Program-made: the position numbers and the translations under genes | DNA from: a virus | Length of the DNA stretch: 64,000 nt | Virus record (IMG/VR): IMGVR_UViG_3300006923_001878 | Coordinates: 1-64,000 of that record | Reading direction: 5' to 3' (one strand) | Notes under the pieces: model-generated | Told to the model about the DNA's origin: nothing | The model's input: only the letters and a program-made list of their open reading frames with translations | Databases searched by the model: none | Part shown: positions 563-49,049 of the stretch, one piece after another | How the letters are laid out: the number at the start of each line of letters is the position of its first letter | Numbering within the stretch: the first letter of the stretch is position 1

Positions 563-916
563 ATGAAAACCGAAATAAAATTTGTCTCGAAAGGTTGGGG
601 TTTTGAAAAGTGGATTGTAAATAAAGAAGAATATTGTGGTAAGCTTTTATTCTTCGCAAAAGGAAAGAAGTGTTCGTGGCACTTTCACAAATTAAAAGAC
701 GAAGTTTTTTATATCCAATCTGGGAAAGTAACTGTTCATTTTTCTAGCGGAGATGATCTTACCAAGTCAGAAAATCTTCTCCTTCGCAAAGGAGATAACT
801 TTCACGTACCAATTGGAATGCGACACCGGATAGAAGCTCACGAAGATTCCGAAGTGTTTGAGTTTTCAACCCAGCATTTCGATACAGATAGCCATAGAAT
901 AGAAAAAGGAGATTAA
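563..916 (+). CDS. Cupin-fold protein, sugar isomerase/epimerase-like
   Basis: This is a single-domain cupin of 117 residues. Cupin motif 1 supplies His40, His42 and Glu47 (WHFHKLKDEVFY), and motif 2 supplies His88 (PIGMRHRIEA), giving a full set of metal ligands. The N-terminal GWGFEKW and the ending FSTQHFDTDSHR resemble the C-terminal cupin of type II phosphomannose isomerase/GDP-mannose pyrophosphorylase and related stand-alone cupins. The likely role is sugar-phosphate or nucleotide-sugar isomerisation in the cytoplasm, but substrate cannot be deduced. A Shine-Dalgarno-like AAGGAC lies upstream. Sugar genes of this type in phages may serve glycan synthesis or modification of host or virion; that part is inference. 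Confidence 0.75.
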   Translation: MKTEIKFVSKGWGFEKWIVNKEEYCGKLLFFAKGKKCSWHFHKLKDEVFYIQSGKVTVHFSSGDDLTKSENLLLRKGDNFHVPIGMRHRIEAHEDSEVFEFSTQHFDTDSHRIEKGD

Positions 917-917
917 A

Positions 918-1145
918 ATGGATACTAAAATGGAATTTAAGGAAATGAAGCTATCGACTCAAGCACTAGGTGCCTTGATGATGGCACTACAAAAGTCCCT
1001 ACTTGAGCAATCGGACATTACCCCCGTCCTACAAGGCTTTAGCTTTGTCGATACAGAAGAGGGTCTCTGGATTAAGAACCCGCCTCTAGTCAAGTTTGAC
1101 TGGCTCAAGGTCGATGAGAATGGAGACGAAGTACAGGATGCCTAA
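918..1145 (+). CDS. Small hypothetical protein (75 aa)
   Basis: The product is 75 residues. It contains a helix with LSTQALGALMMALQ and LLEQSDITPVL, then a short region with NPP. It resembles small proteins that recur in T4-like marine phages, but I know no function for them. There is no membrane segment. A good AAAAGGAG site precedes the ATG at 918. The gene starts one base after the cupin stop, and its last codons overlap the start of the zinc-ribbon gene by 8 bases, which suggests translational coupling. Confidence 0.7.
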   Translation: MDTKMEFKEMKLSTQALGALMMALQKSLLEQSDITPVLQGFSFVDTEEGLWIKNPPLVKFDWLKVDENGDEVQDA

Positions 1146-1368
1146 GTATTCTTACGAATGTGAAGAGTGCTCCCATACGTGGGAAGAGAGGTGCAGGATG
1201 GGAAAGTCTCCTAAGGGCTGCCCATCCTGCACCTCTCTTTTTTTTACAAAACTTCCACCTACGATGACATATGTAAAAAGTAAGAGAGTCGATGTTGTCA
1301 ACCTGATTGATAAGTCAACCGAAGAGCTCAAAGCACAAAAAGACAATTTTAAAAGGAGAGAGTTATAA
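1138..1368 (+). CDS. FmdB-like zinc-ribbon protein
   Basis: The protein has 76 residues from the ATG at 1138; a longer in-frame start at 1096 is less likely because MPKYSYEC is the typical beginning of FmdB-type zinc ribbons. Cys8, Cys11, Cys28 and Cys31 form the two CxxC knuckles of a zinc ribbon, followed by a basic tail. Members of this family are small putative regulators of unknown activity. The gene overlaps the preceding one by 8 bases and its stop shares one base with the next ATG (TAATG). Bases 1184-1245 within it form a perfect terminator-like hairpin, described separately. Confidence 0.75.
   Translation: MPKYSYECEECSHTWEERCRMGKSPKGCPSCTSLFFTKLPPTMTYVKSKRVDVVNLIDKSTEELKAQKDNFKRREL
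1184..1245 (+). terminator. Intrinsic-terminator-like hairpin inside a coding sequence
   Basis: Bases 1184-1202 and 1221-1239 are a perfect 19-bp inverted repeat (core GAGGTGCAGGATGGG) separated by 18 bases. A run of nine T follows the right arm (1237-1245). It has the form of a Rho-independent terminator for the plus strand, but it lies wholly within the zinc-ribbon gene, between and after its two cysteine knuckles. The GC-rich stem stands out in this AT-rich genome. Actively translating ribosomes would cover the stem, so termination could depend on translation. Confidence 0.65.
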
Positions 1369-1703
1369 TGACATTTTTAATAGTAATGTTAGTTTTGACA
1401 ACAGTGTTTCTCATACTTTCACTTGCAATAAACATCGCAGCATTTTGGTATCTTAAGCAGTTGCTTAAATCTTATCGAAATATGGGTAATGCTATTCTTA
1501 AGATGAGAGACGTGATGCATGAATTCGCAGAACACATTAGTTCCATGTATAAGAAAGAATTATATCGAGGAGATCCAACTATTCGAGGAATAGTTGCCCA
1601 TGCTAAAGAGGTGGTCGAAGAAATCAATCTTTTCGCTGGTTCAATAGTAATAGAGGAAAACGAGGAGAGACCCAATGGCGGCAACGACACCGAAGAAGAC
1701 TAA
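1368..1703 (+). CDS. Single-pass membrane protein (111 aa)
   Basis: One long hydrophobic segment spans about residues 3-30. A coiled, charged cytoplasmic or periplasmic region follows, with a YRGDPTIRGIVAHAKE stretch. Small proteins with an N-terminal membrane anchor followed by 'YGD.T...L..H' occur in many T4-like phages, often close to gene 55, and I believe this is one of them; their role is unknown. A strong AAAAGGAGAGAG site lies upstream. The 3' end overlaps the sigma-factor gene by 29 bases, so the two are probably expressed together. Confidence 0.7.
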   Translation: MTFLIVMLVLTTVFLILSLAINIAAFWYLKQLLKSYRNMGNAILKMRDVMHEFAEHISSMYKKELYRGDPTIRGIVAHAKEVVEEINLFAGSIVIEENEERPNGGNDTEED

Positions 1704-2379
1704 GACCAAAAAGAACATGTATTTTACAATGGTGCATGAACAAGCAATTCTGGACTATGTGAAGTCTGAAGATAAAGACGAAAAGGAGCGGCTCTATATT
1801 TCACTCTTAGAGCCCGCCTTTACAGAGATGATTGATAAGATTGTCTATACTTTTAAGTTTAATTCCCTCCCGAATATTGATGTATTAAAACACGACTGCC
1901 TCTTGCAAGTTGTAAATGTGTTGTGCAAGTATGATAAAGATAGAGGCTCCAAAGCCTTTGCATATTTCTCAGTCATCGTAAAAAATTGGTTTATCCAACA
2001 GACTAAGAAAAATAAGAAACGAATGATTATAGAGCAAGACTCTGATGATAAAATCAGAGAAGCTTATCATAGCCAACTCATAGTCCATAATCCCTATCAT
2101 AAAACAAGAGAACAGCAAGAGTTCATTGACGGCTTAGGTAAACAAATTGTTAACTGGAAAGAAATGCCAAATCTTGGAGTTAATGAATTAAAAGTTATTC
2201 ATGCTATCGAACACCTCTTTGCAAATATAAATGAAATAGAATTTTTTAGTAAGAAAGCTATTTATCTATACCTGAGAGAGTTAACTGGGCTTACTACAAA
2301 AGAGATAGTTGCCGAGTTGACAAAGTTGCGAAAAAGCTATAAAGTCTTTAAAAAAGGGTGGGAACGGTCAGCAGTATGA
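1675..2379 (+). CDS. Late-transcription sigma factor, T4 gp55-like
   Basis: This 234-residue protein resembles the divergent sigma-70 relatives of the T4 gp55 group. Residues about 75-125 hold a region-2-like segment (LQVVNVLCKYDKDRG, AFAYFSVIVKNWFI, then basic KKNKKR), which in this family binds core polymerase and the -10 element. The C-terminal third ends in a helix-turn-helix-like part (YLYLRELTGLTTKEIV). T4 gp55 is 185 residues, so this one has extra N- and C-terminal sequence. In T4 it works with gp33 and the gp45 clamp to recognise TATAAATA late promoters. A GAGGAGAG site precedes the ATG. It should direct transcription of the head and tail genes in this window. Confidence 0.75.
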   Translation: MAATTPKKTKTKKNMYFTMVHEQAILDYVKSEDKDEKERLYISLLEPAFTEMIDKIVYTFKFNSLPNIDVLKHDCLLQVVNVLCKYDKDRGSKAFAYFSVIVKNWFIQQTKKNKKRMIIEQDSDDKIREAYHSQLIVHNPYHKTREQQEFIDGLGKQIVNWKEMPNLGVNELKVIHAIEHLFANINEIEFFSKKAIYLYLRELTGLTTKEIVAELTKLRKSYKVFKKGWERSAV

Positions 2380-3314: not shown

Positions 3315-4183
3315 TTAAATTATCACCTAGAAGATTAAATCTAGGCTTTCAAGACGCTGTTGACAATATCAGAGATGAACTTGAAGCTTCTTCAAACTAT
3401 AAAGGCTCTGGTCTTGAAGGTAGTATTTCTACTTATGAAAGTCCAAAGTTAATCAGGCTAGAAAACCAAATACTATACGAACATGTAGACAACCCAGCAG
3501 GGCTTTTGTTAGGAAATGACAAGTTTTACAGAGATAAGAAAGGTAGTCCGGCTCCTGTAACGACTCTTTTTGCAGTAAGTGAGGCATCTGAAGGCGATGT
3601 AGACCTCCGAGATAAGGAATCTCTCCAATTCTCAGCTAGACTTGATGTATCGAGCATGACAGATATAAAAACACCAACTTTACTTGGAGATTTTAATGCT
3701 AGATCAGCTATAGAAGCATCTGCCGATGTCCTTAATCTCAAGGGCACAGAGTTCGTCCAGATTAAAGCAGGCGGTCGCAGGTATAATTCCAGGGGCGCAC
3801 GGGTCGATTCTAGGGCTGAAATCCATCTCTTCACCGAGGGAGCAGGAGAGGTTCAATCTCTACCTATGGGGGATAGCTTAGTGTCCGTTCTTGAAGATAT
3901 TATTGAAAGAGTAAGTGAACTTACTGCTACTGTCCAAAAATTACACAGCGAAAGCTTAACATTTAAGACAACCTTGGCAGCACACACTCATATCGCTCCA
4001 CTTATCGGGCCAACAACACCTAGCATAGAGCTAATGACAGCAACAATTGCTGGAGCTGTTAATGATGCAACATCAGTTGCAAACATCATTGGTAACGTTG
4101 CAAATAATATGTTTGTTCCCCAAAAATATCTGAAGCCATACTCACCGAAGAATATCCTCAGCAAAAATGTGAAGATTAACTAA
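3311..4183 (+). CDS. Baseplate hub/spike-associated structural protein
   Basis: The product has 290 residues. A central part has short beta repeats (LNLKGTEFVQIKAGG, AEIHLFTEGAGEV) like those in gp5/VgrG-type spike proteins. It is followed by a helical stretch (SVLEDIIERVSELTATV) and an AHTHI histidine motif at about residue 225. The end has Pro/Tyr-rich KYLKPYSPKNILS. This order of strand, coiled helix, H-T-H and tail recurs in structural proteins of marine T4-like phages near the baseplate genes. A membrane-puncturing or hub role is inferred from context. The start overlaps the preceding stop (ATGA). Confidence 0.5.
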   Translation: MIKLSPRRLNLGFQDAVDNIRDELEASSNYKGSGLEGSISTYESPKLIRLENQILYEHVDNPAGLLLGNDKFYRDKKGSPAPVTTLFAVSEASEGDVDLRDKESLQFSARLDVSSMTDIKTPTLLGDFNARSAIEASADVLNLKGTEFVQIKAGGRRYNSRGARVDSRAEIHLFTEGAGEVQSLPMGDSLVSVLEDIIERVSELTATVQKLHSESLTFKTTLAAHTHIAPLIGPTTPSIELMTATIAGAVNDATSVANIIGNVANNMFVPQKYLKPYSPKNILSKNVKIN

Positions 4184-9775: not shown

Positions 9776-11568
9776 TGCCAAAACAAAAACCACCAGTATC
9801 ATATACGAACAGAGACTTCTCTTCAATTAAGAAGGATTTGATTAACTATGCCAAAGTATATTATCCAGAGACATACAAAGACTTTAACGACGCCTCTTTC
9901 GGCTCGTTGTTGTTTGATTTAGTGTCTTATGTTGGCGACTCAATGTCGTTTTATATCGATTATCAAATGAACGAATCGATGATGGATACTGTGTTAGACC
10001 CAGACACGGCCATTAAGGTCGCTAAAAGAAGAGGTTATAAATTAAGTGGCTCTCCATCCTCAACCGGAACTGCTGCTTTTTATGTAACCGTGCCCGCGAC
10101 TTCCGATGGAACCCAGCCAGAAACTGACCTTATCCCAATTCTAAAGAAAGGCTCGACACTTTCCTCAACCTCTGGAGCGAGCTTCATATTAAGTGAGGAT
10201 GTAGATTTTTCAAAAGCATCAACTTTAATCACAGTTGCAGAGGTAGCTAACGACGGGTCGGTATCATCTTATGCTATGAAGGCTTACGGAGAAATCCTAT
10301 CAGGTGAGTTAAAGAGTGAATTCTTTACGGTTGGTTCTTATGAAAAATTTAGGAAACTTACTCTTGATGATGATAATGTTACTGAGATTTTACTAGTGAC
10401 TGATTCTGAAGGTAGGCAATATTACGAAGTTGATTACTTGGCGCAAGATACGGTAATGAAGCCAATAAGAAATCTTGGAACTGATTTTGAACAAGCACCT
10501 TTCATAATTAAAGAGATGCAGGTGCCAAGAAGGTTTACTGTTGATTATGATTTAGAAGGTGTGGCAACAATCCAGTTTGGACATGGTTCTGAACAAGAAC
10601 TGATTGATAAAACATTTCCAGACCCAAGAGATGCAGTCCTTCAATTACACGGCAGGGATTATATATCAGATACTTCTTTTGACCCAAACCTAGTTAGCAA
10701 AACTGAAAAGTTTGGAATATCTCCAACAGATACTACTCTCTTGGTTGAGTATCGTAAGAACACCGAAGCTGTTTTAAATATAGCTGTTGGGGGTATCGAC
10801 TTAGTATCTAATGCTATTATTGAATTCCGACAAAGTAATACTTACTCGAAACAACAAGCACTTTCGTTAATATCAGAATTTGAGGTTGAGAATGAAGAAA
10901 GAATTGTTGGTCAAGTATCTTTATTGAATGTTGATGAAATAAGAGAACTAGCTCTTGCAGCAAACGCAGCGCAAAATAGAGCTGTGACAAAGAATGACTA
11001 TGTTTCTGTTATCTATAGAATGCCTGCTAAGTATGGCAATTTAAAAAGAGCCAATGTTTTACAAGATAAAGACTCTTTCAAGCGTAACTTAAATATATAT
11101 GTGTTGGCAGAAGATGAAAATGGAAAGTTAGTAAAAGCGAGCACGACCCTTAAAAGAAATCTTAAGGCTTGGATCTCAAACTACAAGATGATGAATGATA
11201 CAATTGATATCTTGGATGGAAATATTGTTAATATTGGACTTGAGTTTGAAGTAATTTCTAGTATCGGGGAGAACAAGACTAGGGTCTTAAATGATTGCCT
11301 ACGTGCTCTTAAGGAAAATTTAGGTAGTAAACTAAATATGGGAGAGCCTCTCATCCTTGGTAGGTTATATAAAATCCTAAATGATGTTGATGGGGTAGAA
11401 GATACCAAGTCTGTTAATATAGTAAAGAAGACAGGTTCTTCTTATAGCAACGTAGTTTATGAGGTTAAAGAGAGACTTAAGTCTTCTGGAAGAATTTTAA
11501 CAGTTGCAGAGAATGCTGTTCTAGAAATAAAATATTTCGACACAGATGTAACCGGGGTGGTAATGTAA
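9775..11568 (+). CDS. 6: Baseplate wedge protein gp6 (baseplate J family)
   Basis: The 597-residue product begins with SYTNRDFSSIKKDLINY and a FGSLLFDLVSYVGDSMSFYID segment, the hallmark N-terminus of T4 gp6-like wedge proteins (T4 gp6 has 660 residues). The middle holds the baseplate J-like beta domain. Around residues 390-420 is the conserved AANAAQNRAVTKNDYVS motif shared by gp6-like and baseplate J proteins. In T4, two gp6 copies per wedge form the ring that couples hub to wedge and triggers sheath contraction. It follows gp25 with a one-base overlap. Confidence 0.88.
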   Translation: MPKQKPPVSYTNRDFSSIKKDLINYAKVYYPETYKDFNDASFGSLLFDLVSYVGDSMSFYIDYQMNESMMDTVLDPDTAIKVAKRRGYKLSGSPSSTGTAAFYVTVPATSDGTQPETDLIPILKKGSTLSSTSGASFILSEDVDFSKASTLITVAEVANDGSVSSYAMKAYGEILSGELKSEFFTVGSYEKFRKLTLDDDNVTEILLVTDSEGRQYYEVDYLAQDTVMKPIRNLGTDFEQAPFIIKEMQVPRRFTVDYDLEGVATIQFGHGSEQELIDKTFPDPRDAVLQLHGRDYISDTSFDPNLVSKTEKFGISPTDTTLLVEYRKNTEAVLNIAVGGIDLVSNAIIEFRQSNTYSKQQALSLISEFEVENEERIVGQVSLLNVDEIRELALAANAAQNRAVTKNDYVSVIYRMPAKYGNLKRANVLQDKDSFKRNLNIYVLAEDENGKLVKASTTLKRNLKAWISNYKMMNDTIDILDGNIVNIGLEFEVISSIGENKTRVLNDCLRALKENLGSKLNMGEPLILGRLYKILNDVDGVEDTKSVNIVKKTGSSYSNVVYEVKERLKSSGRILTVAENAVLEIKYFDTDVTGVVM

Positions 11569-26786: not shown

Positions 26787-28709
26787 ATGTTTAAAATAAA
26801 ACAAAATGAGGTATTTAACAACATCTTGAAAACATACCCAAAATATGTTTTCAAGATGTTCAATAACAAATGTGTTTTAAATGATTCGAATGATGAGGGA
26901 ATTCATTCTAGCGACGAGGGCAAGCTTTATTTAAATGACTTGAACCTAAAAGCTCCAGTAAGTAATAATTCTCTTTATTACGATAAGACAGGATCGTGTA
27001 TTGTTTCAGGAGGTATTCCTGATTTACTTTCATCAGATGGAACCTCTATAAACGATGGCAATTTGGCAATCTCAATGTGGGTCTATGTAGAGACTGGCTC
27101 AATTCCTGGAAACCCAACCTTAGTACAAATAGGAACTCAGTCACTTTCTGTTGAAGATGGTCGTGATGTTCTATACTTCAACGGAACAAGTTCGATAAAT
27201 CCATTCTCTTTGGTTTATAGCATTGGAACACCCTCAGGAGAGAAAAGATACCGAACAGAGAAGAATATACTTCCTCTTGAAGAATGGACCCATGTTGCTG
27301 TAACCAAAGTTCAGTTTGATAAGGCGTATTTTTATGTAAATGGTGAAAGACTCACTACTATCAAAGAAGTTGACACAGCAACAGCCGGTGGGGTGTTTAC
27401 AAAGTTAACTGCCTCTATAGGTAATAATGCAAATGACGGAAGTGTATTTCCTGGCTATATAGATGAAGTGAGTTTATTTTCAAAGAAGCTAAGATCATCA
27501 GACGCCTCTTATCTCTATAACGAAGGCCAACCAAGAGACTATCTAAATCTTAATAGCACCCTATCCCCAAAGATAGTTTCTCACTGGACCATGGGGGACG
27601 GGGACACCGCTCCTACCGTTTCTGATAAAATATCCACAAACGATCTTATAATGTCAGGGTTTTCTACAAACTATGGAATCTCAAACAAGGTTCCTTTAGG
27701 CTCACAAGTCTCTATCAGCGATGGGAATCTAAAACAAAATAAAAAGAATCCAGATGGATTTACGTTTAGACGAGAGTATATTCATAAAACAGATAGTGCT
27801 GGGTATAATTCATACGATGAGACATACACTTCAACAAAAACGATGTTTAAGATGTTAACTCTTAAAAACGCAATGGACCGCTATCTTGTTATGTCTGATG
27901 CTTTTAAGTTTGAGAACTTTCTTTTAAGCGGTGGATTACCAACGAATACAAATACAGACACTAGCACTGGCTTAGTGACTAGAATGATCCATCCATCTGG
28001 TAGTATTAACATTCTTAGCATTCCAAAGATGTTTTATGAAAACAGAATTAAGCCCGGAAGTGTGAGTCTTAATTTTTATACATCAGGAAGTCTTATTGCG
28101 ACTGCGCAGGACTTATATAAGAACGGAGCAATGGTCAGCACCCTGGGCATGGACTCAGGTTCGGTCGTCGGAACCGTCCTTTACAGCGAGGGATATATCC
28201 TTTTGACGGGCTCCACAGTCCTAGACGCCTCTCACTCCGAGCCATATATGAAGCCTCTTAGAACGGAAGACAGCGCTGGATATGATAATCCGAAATGGAT
28301 CCACTTTGGCTCTTACGAGTCCGCAACAGGAAGCAACCTACCTTCGTCTTCATATAAGATGGAATTCAAAGGTGAGAACTCTATAAATACATTGATGTTC
28401 TTTGCTCATGCAAGAAAGAATGAATTAAATTATAGTAACAACCCCTCATACCTAGAAGCTGGCAATGGTGGTAAATGGATAATAAGTACTGGTTCTAAGT
28501 TGTATCTAGAAAACGAAAGTCTACCAATTAAGAATACAATTTCCAGTTCAGTCTCACATCATTCAGAGTCTTTTCAACAGCAAGTTTTTATTGATAGAAT
28601 TGGAGTTTATGATAAAGATGGTGATATGATTATGGTCGCTTCCCTTGCCAACCCACTTAAAAAAAGGACAGATTTAAGCTATACTTTTAAACTCAAAATG
28701 GATATGTAA
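26787..28709 (+). CDS. LamG-domain virion/fibre protein (640 aa)
   Basis: Residues about 88-235 form a LamG/concanavalin-like sandwich: NLAISMWVYVETG, LEEWTHVAVTKVQF, AYFYVNGERL and YIDEVSLFSKKL. The C-terminal 100 residues match the closing module of the preceding protein. Between them is a beta-rich Ser/Gly region; its DNA at about 28,140-28,260 is visibly richer in GC than the surroundings. LamG domains in phage proteins often bind glycans, so a receptor-binding or fibre role is likely. The mRNA can form a 17-bp hairpin over codons 12-25. The start is weakly served, with AAGG 11 bases upstream. Confidence 0.68.
   Translation: MFKIKQNEVFNNILKTYPKYVFKMFNNKCVLNDSNDEGIHSSDEGKLYLNDLNLKAPVSNNSLYYDKTGSCIVSGGIPDLLSSDGTSINDGNLAISMWVYVETGSIPGNPTLVQIGTQSLSVEDGRDVLYFNGTSSINPFSLVYSIGTPSGEKRYRTEKNILPLEEWTHVAVTKVQFDKAYFYVNGERLTTIKEVDTATAGGVFTKLTASIGNNANDGSVFPGYIDEVSLFSKKLRSSDASYLYNEGQPRDYLNLNSTLSPKIVSHWTMGDGDTAPTVSDKISTNDLIMSGFSTNYGISNKVPLGSQVSISDGNLKQNKKNPDGFTFRREYIHKTDSAGYNSYDETYTSTKTMFKMLTLKNAMDRYLVMSDAFKFENFLLSGGLPTNTNTDTSTGLVTRMIHPSGSINILSIPKMFYENRIKPGSVSLNFYTSGSLIATAQDLYKNGAMVSTLGMDSGSVVGTVLYSEGYILLTGSTVLDASHSEPYMKPLRTEDSAGYDNPKWIHFGSYESATGSNLPSSSYKMEFKGENSINTLMFFAHARKNELNYSNNPSYLEAGNGGKWIISTGSKLYLENESLPIKNTISSSVSHHSESFQQQVFIDRIGVYDKDGDMIMVASLANPLKKRTDLSYTFKLKMDM
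26820..26860 (+). repeat. 17-bp perfect hairpin near the start of a LamG gene
   Basis: Bases 26820-26836 and 26844-26860 are perfect inverted repeats (arm AACATCTTGAAAACATA) with a seven-base loop. The structure lies 33 bases after the ATG of the LamG protein gene and has no T run behind it, so it is not a classical terminator. It could slow ribosomes, act as a processing site or protect mRNA. Confidence 0.6.
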
Positions 28710-46697: not shown

Positions 46698-49049
46698 ATG
46701 CTAAAATTAACAATCAATAACAAAAAAAAACTAATAAGTGAAATTAAGGGTAACAACCAAAAACTAGAACAAGTTGTTTCTAGAATGGATAAAGGATACC
46801 TTGAAGACTATCTTGTAGATATTTTTGGTGATAAAAACAGGTTTGCTGTCCGGTCAGAAGTTAGTCTTGGCCTAACACACCCTGTATGGAAAAATATACT
46901 TTCATCGTTTGAGATTGATAAAAAAGGAATTTCTAGGTGGTGGTATTATAATGAATATACTAAAAATACGGAAACTAAAAGTAAAAAACTTGGTAAGCAC
47001 TTAACAGATCTTGTTAGGGTGTCTAAGCCTCTGCTGGCAATTCGTGAAAAGAGAGACGAGGACTTTTTCAAGTTGTCGGACTTGAGATTTAATCTGAGGA
47101 AAGTTGCGCAAGATCTTAGGGATGAGGCCATTAATACTTTAAGGTATCCTGGGTCAAGGGCAACCTTGGAGCGGGATGCTGGTGTTCCTTTTAATGCAAG
47201 AGCGGAAGGTGCCATTATACAATTTTTTGAAATCAATAGAGAAGAATTATACGAAGTTTTTGCTTTCTTTGACAAAATCGCTTTTGGTGCGTTTAAAGAT
47301 AATTATGAAGTTTATGCAGAAACAAAAGCTCAAGAAGAGAAAGCTCTTACTCTTATCGGGTTCGTTATTGAAGAGTTTGATTACATTATCGATAATCCAC
47401 AATTATATAATGCATCAATTATGAAACAAAAACTAGGCGCATTAGAGAAGGAAATAGTTAAGAGAAGAGAATGGCTTGCAAGAAATGAAAAACATGAAGA
47501 GGAAGAGATATCGGCTATAAAAAAGTTTAAAAACTTTGGTGGCGAAAATCGGCTATTAAAAAAGTATCAAACAATGTTAGATTGGTGGAATAAAAACTCA
47601 GAAGAAGCACTTAGAGATCTCAATGGTGAATCAACTAAAGACCCTGGGTTTGTCTATATCTTTTCAAAACATCCAATTGATGTCCTGAGAATGGGCGATC
47701 ATGATGGTATTACATCATGCCACTCCCCATCACAAGGATATTTTAAATGCGCAGTAGCTGATGCGAAAGGTGGCGGTGCTGTCGTATATTTAATCAACTC
47801 AGACCAATATGATGTGCTTAACAGGGTTAATAGCAATTGGGAGAGGAGCAAAGAAGAAATCTTCTTTGATAAAGATCGCCCAGATAACCAAAACATGGAA
47901 GACGAAATCTCGAAAGGTAAGCTTGTTCCAAGTGCAAGATTCAGAATCCGAAGAATTGTTCATTATGAAAATGGAAGACCTGCAAGAGATTTTGGCGTGC
48001 CAGAGCTTCGAATTTATTCAAATAAGTTTACAGAGATAGGCGAAACTGTTCGGGCGAAGTTTCTAAAAGAAATAACAATAATTCTTAGAGATTTACAGAA
48101 AGAAGTCTTTCAGGCAGGTTTACCAGATGAAGAAGATCTAAAACTAGCTGGTGGTGATTATCAAGATACACCTCCTTCCAAACTATTCAAAAACTTCTTT
48201 GGATTAGAGTATGTGTCATCATATGTTCTTGATAATCATCCACTTGAGAATAAGGCAAATAGCACAAAACACTTATTTGCTCACTTTAAGAAAATATACG
48301 CCATTAATGAGGAATCCGAAGCTCATTCTAACCATACAACTTATAATTTTTATTCAAGCTTTGCCGAACACCCAGAGGATCGGGTATATCCAAACGAAAC
48401 GGGGATGCCTTGGCGGGTGCAGTATTTTGAAGGAGGAAACAATGGAGATTCTCTTCAATTTGACATTGAAGACCCATTTCCAGGACTTGGAACTAAAGTT
48501 GGCTTTCTGATGCCACTCAACAAACACCAATCCAATAGATTTATTATGAGCTCCTATGTTGATCAGGAATTCCGAGGCTTTGTTATTGAACAATTTGTTA
48601 AATCTATATCATCTAAACCTTCTTATCTTAGAGCTAGGTGTTATAACCTAGAAGAAAACAATATTTTTGCTATTGATTTTGATGGAGATAAACAAGTCTT
48701 TAGTTTTCGTGGTATTGAGTTTTCATTTTCAGATTCTAAAGAAGACATATTAAGCAAATTGATAGAACATAGAGATAGCGAAATCAAGGCTTACGACAAG
48801 GTTAGTCAAAAATCGAAAAGAATTCTGGCCAAAAAGAATATAAACCCGACAAGCATAGTCAATAAAAATTTCGCATCAATCATTGCAACTTTCGAAAGCA
48901 CCGACGAGTATTATCTTAAAAGTTTCTTCACTTCACTCGTTCAGAACTATAGAAACTTTAAGAAACAAGAAGCAATTCTTAGAGACGTTATTTTTGCTAT
49001 CCAAAAACTTAATCCAGACTTTAGATTTGAATATAAATATTTAGAATGA
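46698..49049 (+). CDS. Unknown 783-aa protein with SKHP...SCH motif
   Basis: I cannot assign a function. The first 310 residues are helical and charged, with long coiled stretches. Residues about 319-360 hold a motif of the form FSKHPIDVLRMG....ITSCH (Cys341, His342), followed by GGGAVVYLI and later PSARFRIRRI. I recall phage proteins of unknown role with SRHP-DI-MS---W-SC and a following 'AYLI' strand, so a distant relationship is possible. The C-terminal 300 residues are mixed alpha/beta. The gene lies alone between the capsid terminator and the neck gene, which is unusual for head-assembly order, and no T4 counterpart is known to me. Confidence 0.6.
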   Translation: MLKLTINNKKKLISEIKGNNQKLEQVVSRMDKGYLEDYLVDIFGDKNRFAVRSEVSLGLTHPVWKNILSSFEIDKKGISRWWYYNEYTKNTETKSKKLGKHLTDLVRVSKPLLAIREKRDEDFFKLSDLRFNLRKVAQDLRDEAINTLRYPGSRATLERDAGVPFNARAEGAIIQFFEINREELYEVFAFFDKIAFGAFKDNYEVYAETKAQEEKALTLIGFVIEEFDYIIDNPQLYNASIMKQKLGALEKEIVKRREWLARNEKHEEEEISAIKKFKNFGGENRLLKKYQTMLDWWNKNSEEALRDLNGESTKDPGFVYIFSKHPIDVLRMGDHDGITSCHSPSQGYFKCAVADAKGGGAVVYLINSDQYDVLNRVNSNWERSKEEIFFDKDRPDNQNMEDEISKGKLVPSARFRIRRIVHYENGRPARDFGVPELRIYSNKFTEIGETVRAKFLKEITIILRDLQKEVFQAGLPDEEDLKLAGGDYQDTPPSKLFKNFFGLEYVSSYVLDNHPLENKANSTKHLFAHFKKIYAINEESEAHSNHTTYNFYSSFAEHPEDRVYPNETGMPWRVQYFEGGNNGDSLQFDIEDPFPGLGTKVGFLMPLNKHQSNRFIMSSYVDQEFRGFVIEQFVKSISSKPSYLRARCYNLEENNIFAIDFDGDKQVFSFRGIEFSFSDSKEDILSKLIEHRDSEIKAYDKVSQKSKRILAKKNINPTSIVNKNFASIIATFESTDEYYLKSFFTSLVQNYRNFKKQEAILRDVIFAIQKLNPDFRFEYKYLE
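49032..49039 (+). promoter_or_regulatory. T4-late-promoter-like TATAAATA
   Basis: The exact octamer TATAAATA (the T4 late -10 core) lies on the plus strand at the end of the preceding coding sequence, 35 bases before the neck-protein ATG. A gp55-like factor is encoded in the window, so it is a plausible late promoter for the tail module. It is a short AT-rich match and could be coincidence. Confidence 0.4.

Follow-up and report, generated by a model that had tools for sequence, protein, structure and literature searches.

The window, as the whole stretch of 64,000 nucleotides analysed here is called, carries near its left end a hairpin with the shape of a transcription terminator, placed inside an intact zinc-ribbon gene and upstream of a late sigma factor gene. 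Its position raises the question of whether the hairpin is a regulatory switch for the genes behind it or a by-product of the way in which the DNA of this phage has changed. The explanation moderately favoured here is that of a lineage-specific hairpin made by template switching, whose terminator shape and any regulatory effect came as by-products; its mechanism, its direction and the termination itself are ones that we infer.

The phage is a virus of bacteria and probably marine, to judge from the nearest phage records. It is also represented by a second IMG/VR record (G001, 176 kb, equivalent to L170-L178), which is identical over 801 bp at the hairpin and, across the 99 kb common to both, differs from the window's record by 13 SNPs without any indel. 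An assembly or amplification artefact is therefore extremely unlikely: inverted chimeras do arise in amplified DNA, but the hairpin is the same in two records that differ elsewhere, and the open frame and the zinc cysteines are intact. Relatives were confirmed by two scans, one for the sigma factor (143) and one for the small upstream ORF (364), with 80 retained from each, and the loci yielded 95 distinct zinc-ribbon genes, comprising that of the window and 94 from relatives. No close relative was found, the next zinc ribbon beyond the same phage being only 28% identical. Family B DNA polymerase (DNA_pol_B, gp43) was absent from all six phages of the group searched, and a bacterial-type Pol III alpha (DnaE) and a PolA-like polymerase were present in the gp55-bearing phages (G001:C1:152963-153766), so these phages are not close kin of T4. 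A defect of a T4-type DNA polymerase was also considered, but these phages have no DNA_pol_B in which to look for one.

The host gene belongs to a cassette whose order recurs in many IMG/VR phage contigs, with the arrangement around the membrane protein gene being the same in L004 and L006 (Table 1). The sequence-only reading had called the encoded zinc ribbon intact and had placed a membrane protein and a gp55-like late sigma factor downstream of it, and both descriptions are borne out. The frame is uninterrupted, the ligands C8, C11, C28 and C31 are all kept, and the protein matches Pfam Zn_ribbon_8 (E 5e-8; 33.2 bits, just below the gathering threshold of 34.4), while the sigma match ('late sigma transcription factor') spans residues 48-122 of that protein. 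Upstream of the cassette, a cupin gene (window 563-916; PHROG 7851 'cysteine dioxygenase', E 2e-55) has its closest counterparts in marine cyanophages, where they adjoin phosphoheptose isomerase.

Table 1. Hairpin parts, cassette genes and further perfect inverted repeats; positions are those of the window unless a contig is named.
Feature	Position	Strand or record	Remarks
Conserved small upstream ORF of the cassette	918..1145	+	QALGA.MMALQ; overlaps zinc-ribbon start
FmdB-type zinc-ribbon gene, 76 aa, hosts the hairpin	1138..1368	+	Start overlaps upstream ORF end by 8 nt
Arm 1	1184..1202	+	AAGAGAGGTGCAGGATGGG; codes EERCRMG; putative recipient arm; family profile z -3.1
Loop, 18 nt	1203..1220	+	Holds weak 5-bp inner helix; K23 here also off-profile
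Arm 2	1221..1239	+	CCCATCCTGCACCTCTCTT; codes CPSCTSL, including second zinc-ligand pair; putative donor arm; z -0.2
T run of eight	1238..1245	+	Two T pair within stem, six directly after
Small membrane protein gene	1368..1703	+	Putative membrane protein, from N-terminal hydrophobic stretch
gp55-like late sigma factor gene, cassette end	1675..2379	+	PHROG 234, E 4e-7
Second in-gene perfect inverted repeat, 17 bp, 7-nt loop	26820..26860	+	No T tract
Intergenic 16-bp perfect hairpin, GAAA loop	46616..46651	+	Ordinary terminator-like; precedes gene at 46698
Inverted repeat, 23 bp	L170:18213-18279	G001	Longest example
Inverted repeat, 18 bp, in a frame	L170:12222-12271	G001	
Inverted repeat, 16 bp, in a frame	L177:10214-10284	G001	

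The perfect, terminator-like 19-bp stem reported from sequence alone is upheld, with all 19 of 19 positions complementary (100%), and so is the T tract behind it, although the count of nine is not: the run holds eight T, six of them past the stem. Folded as RNA, the hairpin reaches a minimum free energy of -45.8 kcal/mol; dinucleotide shuffles average -20.4 (sd 3.1), which gives z -8.1, and none of them (0/200) was as stable. The predicted fold extends the base by three G-U pairs to 22 continuous pairs. In a genome-wide ranking of terminator-like sites the hairpin is the strongest, at -44 kcal/mol compared with -29.6 for the next. Markov-2 versions of a genome of the same size are expected to hold about 0.3 perfect stems of at least 13 bp at most. 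With the protein fixed, all 19 pairs formed in none of 200,000 synonymous recodings (nine being typical), and the longest stem among 1,500 synonymous recodings of the zinc-ribbon gene was 12. The 19-bp stem is not a product of chance. Local G+C is 46% at 918-1250, the 95th percentile of a genome with a mean of 38%, and declines to 36% over the latter half of that gene's zinc-ribbon frame.

The G+C-rich stem with a U tract immediately behind it is the form of an intrinsic terminator; its place is not, as it sits 46-107 nt inside an intact gene and not at the end or in the leader of a transcription unit. Six T following a given position have a frequency of 0.0005 on the sense strand of the phage genome, which by arithmetic rises to about 0.03 over both strands and the 14 inverted repeats described below. 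In E. coli reporters, a translating ribosome suppresses intrinsic terminators (PMC5021804), and in Pseudomonas aeruginosa, 3' ends within genes are reported to shift in the presence of azithromycin (PMC8297930). Together with the terminator form, these reports suggest that the putative terminator would likely cause some polarity on the sigma and membrane protein genes if no ribosome translates the zinc-ribbon frame. Slippage of the polymerase or the ribosome on the T8 run with the hairpin as stimulator was also considered, but a programmed product is unlikely as the two other frames stop shortly past 1245, at 1267 and about 1284.

A stronger claim is that the hairpin is a selected, translation-sensing attenuator of recent origin, perhaps derived from a template-switch hairpin. 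Ribosomes close behind RNA polymerase in the overlapping upstream ORF and the zinc-ribbon frame would cover arm 1 and allow transcription into the sigma gene, whereas lagging translation would let the hairpin and its U tract stop it. This proposal agrees with the hairpin being the strongest structure of its kind in the genome, with the rarity of six T directly after a stem, with the coupling of terminators in coding sequence to translation in the E. coli reporters, and with L34 and F35, the residues that help to form the T run and that depart from the family profile, so that stem and T run both look derived. Against it stand the absence of the stem from all 94 relatives, the making of similar perfect in-gene repeats without T tracts by the same genome, and the cost of the near-invariant His19, and we regard it as rather unlikely.

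Comparison with the relatives was one of the checks that the sequence-only reading had set for its attenuation proposal, and the stem fails it, which supplies one half of the outcome named there as refuting. Across the zinc-ribbon genes of the 94 relatives, perfect stems do not exceed 12 bp, the usual length being 5-9, and positions homologous to the arms pair at 31%, compared with 26% in shifted controls. The 12-bp maximum occurs in L149 and L152; these hairpins share their gene offset (46-75) with that of the window and have an unrelated sequence and no T tract, and are probably coincidental. A search for a hairpin with a T-rich tract in the 1.8 kb around each related gene gave weak structures only, the best alternative cassette terminator being that of L032 (-17 to -20 kcal/mol), and a terminator moved elsewhere in the relatives' cassette was rejected on this ground. 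A conserved RNA element was likewise rejected, with no Rfam match in the window and no conserved pairing in the relatives. The hairpin is thus specific to the lineage of this phage alone as far as these sequences reach, and a conserved attenuator is not supported, since no relative has the stem or the pairing. The proposed tie between sigma expression and translation is physically sensible; its comparative support is lacking, with the stem in 0/94 relatives. The minimum-free-energy fold of 1120-1400, the only segment folded for this purpose, contained no long helix that would compete as an anti-terminator.

The hairpin might instead lower the membrane protein and sigma mRNA regardless of translation, as a constitutive partial terminator or as a processing site of the RNase III type. 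Its 22 continuous pairs are long enough for double-strand cleavage by RNase III, and the U tract is present; such a site would, however, cleave or terminate the message of its own gene in mid-frame, and it is not conserved, which leaves this explanation improbable.

The genome as a whole sets the hairpin in a different context. The 176 kb of G001 contain 14 perfect inverted repeats that are 14 bp or longer and have a gap of at most 40, compared with 3, 0, 1, 0, 0, 0 and 1 in seven relatives of 147-193 kb each (about 1.2 Mb together) and an expectation of 0 under a second-order Markov model. About 0.7 would be expected at the relatives' rate (Poisson P about 8e-14 for 14), and of repeats of at least 16 bp there are seven in G001 and none in the seven relatives. 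Only short gaps show the excess, with 14 repeats at gaps of at most 40, two at 41-100, one at 101-300 and three at 301-2000. About ten of the 14 lie within open frames, some of which have no homologues and are maybe not genes. A T tract is missing from most of the 14, and the hairpin of 1184-1239 is the only one whose stem is followed by six T without interruption. At the 26820 repeat, conservation of the protein already gives 10 of 17 pairs in the homologue of the relative G002, which is what a quasipalindrome later made perfect would lead one to expect. This excess, rather than the hairpin itself, is the more unusual finding.

The same repeats bear on the suggestion that the hairpin is a decayed mobile element or a shared regulatory element inserted into the zinc-ribbon gene. 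A perfect hairpin does resemble those of small repeats; the protein, however, aligns with its relatives without gaps across the region, which argues against an insertion, and the inverted repeats of the genome are mutually unrelated in sequence. In a scan of 2.9 million viral contigs, the same phage alone had the 17-mer of the arm in hairpin form, the sole other match being a single arm in the unrelated L168, and blastn of the hairpin against phage records gave no match. This alternative, also raised by the sequence-only reading, is very improbable.

Which arm changed was assessed with a profile of the 95 zinc ribbons, close kin being left out. Arm 1 is the least family-like of all (rank 0 of 94), while arm 2 is ordinary (rank 29) and the first 15 residues of the protein lie above the family average (z +1.3). 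Of the 95 zinc ribbons, 92 have His at position 19, where that of the window has Cys, and position 23, in the loop, is Glu or Asp in 89 of 95 and Lys in that of the window. With arm 1 departing from the profile and arm 2 conforming to it, the most economical account is that the reverse complement of arm 2 replaced the earlier sequence of arm 1. Judged indirectly, by a profile in place of a parent sequence, one arm would then be derived and the other ancestral, as in a template switch. The loop is off-profile as well (z -2.9), so the event, or later drift, would have extended past the stem. At three other in-gene repeats the same test did not tell the arms apart: at 3471 the whole region is divergent, at 26820 both arms are ordinary, and at 10214 the profile held 15 rows only.

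Template switching has been reported to make perfect hairpins in a single event (PMC8794818) and to homogenise the arms of inverted repeats in protein genes, with several adjacent amino-acid changes (PMC8604942). In the favoured explanation, DNA synthesis would have switched template between nearby inverted sequences, copying the reverse complement over a short range, and arm 2, with its conserved second Cys-x-x-Cys, would have been copied into arm 1. Arm 2 would be the donor, as its cysteines cannot change; the frame and the four zinc cysteines would have been retained while the residues around the near-invariant His19 were replaced, and the hairpin would belong to the roughly 14 perfect inverted repeats of short range made in this phage. 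Its perfect reverse-complement arms at a short distance agree with this mechanism. Several points speak against it: the ancestral sequence and the single event are not seen among the relatives, because no close one exists; the profile does not separate the arms at three other in-gene repeats; K23 departs from the profile despite lying beyond the copied arm; rare codons (TCC, ACC) lie in arm 2; and the six T after the stem are left unexplained by the mechanism. That the terminator so built was then taken up as a translation-sensing switch of the late sigma factor is a further step, which we consider doubtful.

Other features of the genome may concern expression near gene starts. An intergenic 15-bp perfect hairpin (L177:16133-16190, equal to L179:18928-18985) carries AGGAGG in its 3' arm just before an ATG, and a TTGACA-17-TATGAT promoter-like sequence has its -10 element overlapping the hairpin. 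Transcripts reading through would mask the ribosome site, while those from the local promoter would leave out the 5' arm, an arrangement as described for T4 gene e (PMC3014915). The motif AACTATTTATA occurs on the sense strand at window 41331, 43427 and 46671, a short distance ahead of gene starts, with a similar copy at L177:5890; it is related to the reverse complement of the T4 late TATAAATA and is a candidate promoter of the gp55-like sigma. The copy before the gene at 46698 stands after a terminator-like hairpin, and a perfect 17-bp near-palindrome (ATCCAAGGAGAATCACA..; L177:5851-5886) lies directly 5' of an ACTATTTATA motif. Elsewhere, a block of about 69 nt coding HREDGPAIEYANGSKFW-like units is repeated in L170:1-1500, with direct repeats of up to 96 bp, and L170:17500-17710 holds a tRNA-like 3' end (GGTTCGACTCCCGCGCC...TTGTGCCA) with no ARAGORN call, possibly a tmRNA or tRNA-like gene.

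Long perfect hairpins are hard to build by point mutation, and this phage offers a natural case with many in one lineage, several of them within genes and one with the full shape of a terminator. A terminator-like element can thus arise without selection for regulation, which calls for caution in reading function from shape. If a template switch did build a switch here, a coding sequence acquired a regulatory element through a single mutational step, and the lineage has a raised rate of such events; the phage makes the uptake of such by-products as switches testable.

Among known systems, the protein shares with the FmdB family (Zn_ribbon_8, PF09723) the N-terminal MPxYxYxC..C...C..C, and differs from FmdB-type phage relatives in lacking their common His and Glu/Asp between the knuckles. 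With intrinsic (Rho-independent) terminators the hairpin shares a stable stem that leads straight into a U tract, six of whose eight T lie past the stem; unlike them it lies inside an intact gene, its stem of 19-22 bp exceeds those of the clean intergenic examples in the phage, and its activity is putative. Translation-coupled attenuators such as the pyrL and trp leaders likewise have a translated frame over a hairpin upstream of a regulatory gene, whereas here there is no leader-peptide logic, no competing anti-terminator helix was found in the folded segment and the hairpin is not conserved. Template-switch (quasipalindrome) mutations (PMC8794818, PMC8604942) share with it perfect arms at a short distance, one of which is sacrificed, and in their in-gene cases neighbouring amino-acid changes cluster and the frame is kept, as in the zinc-ribbon gene; the hairpin differs from them in having no parent sequence, in its T tract and in belonging to a genome-wide excess within one phage lineage.
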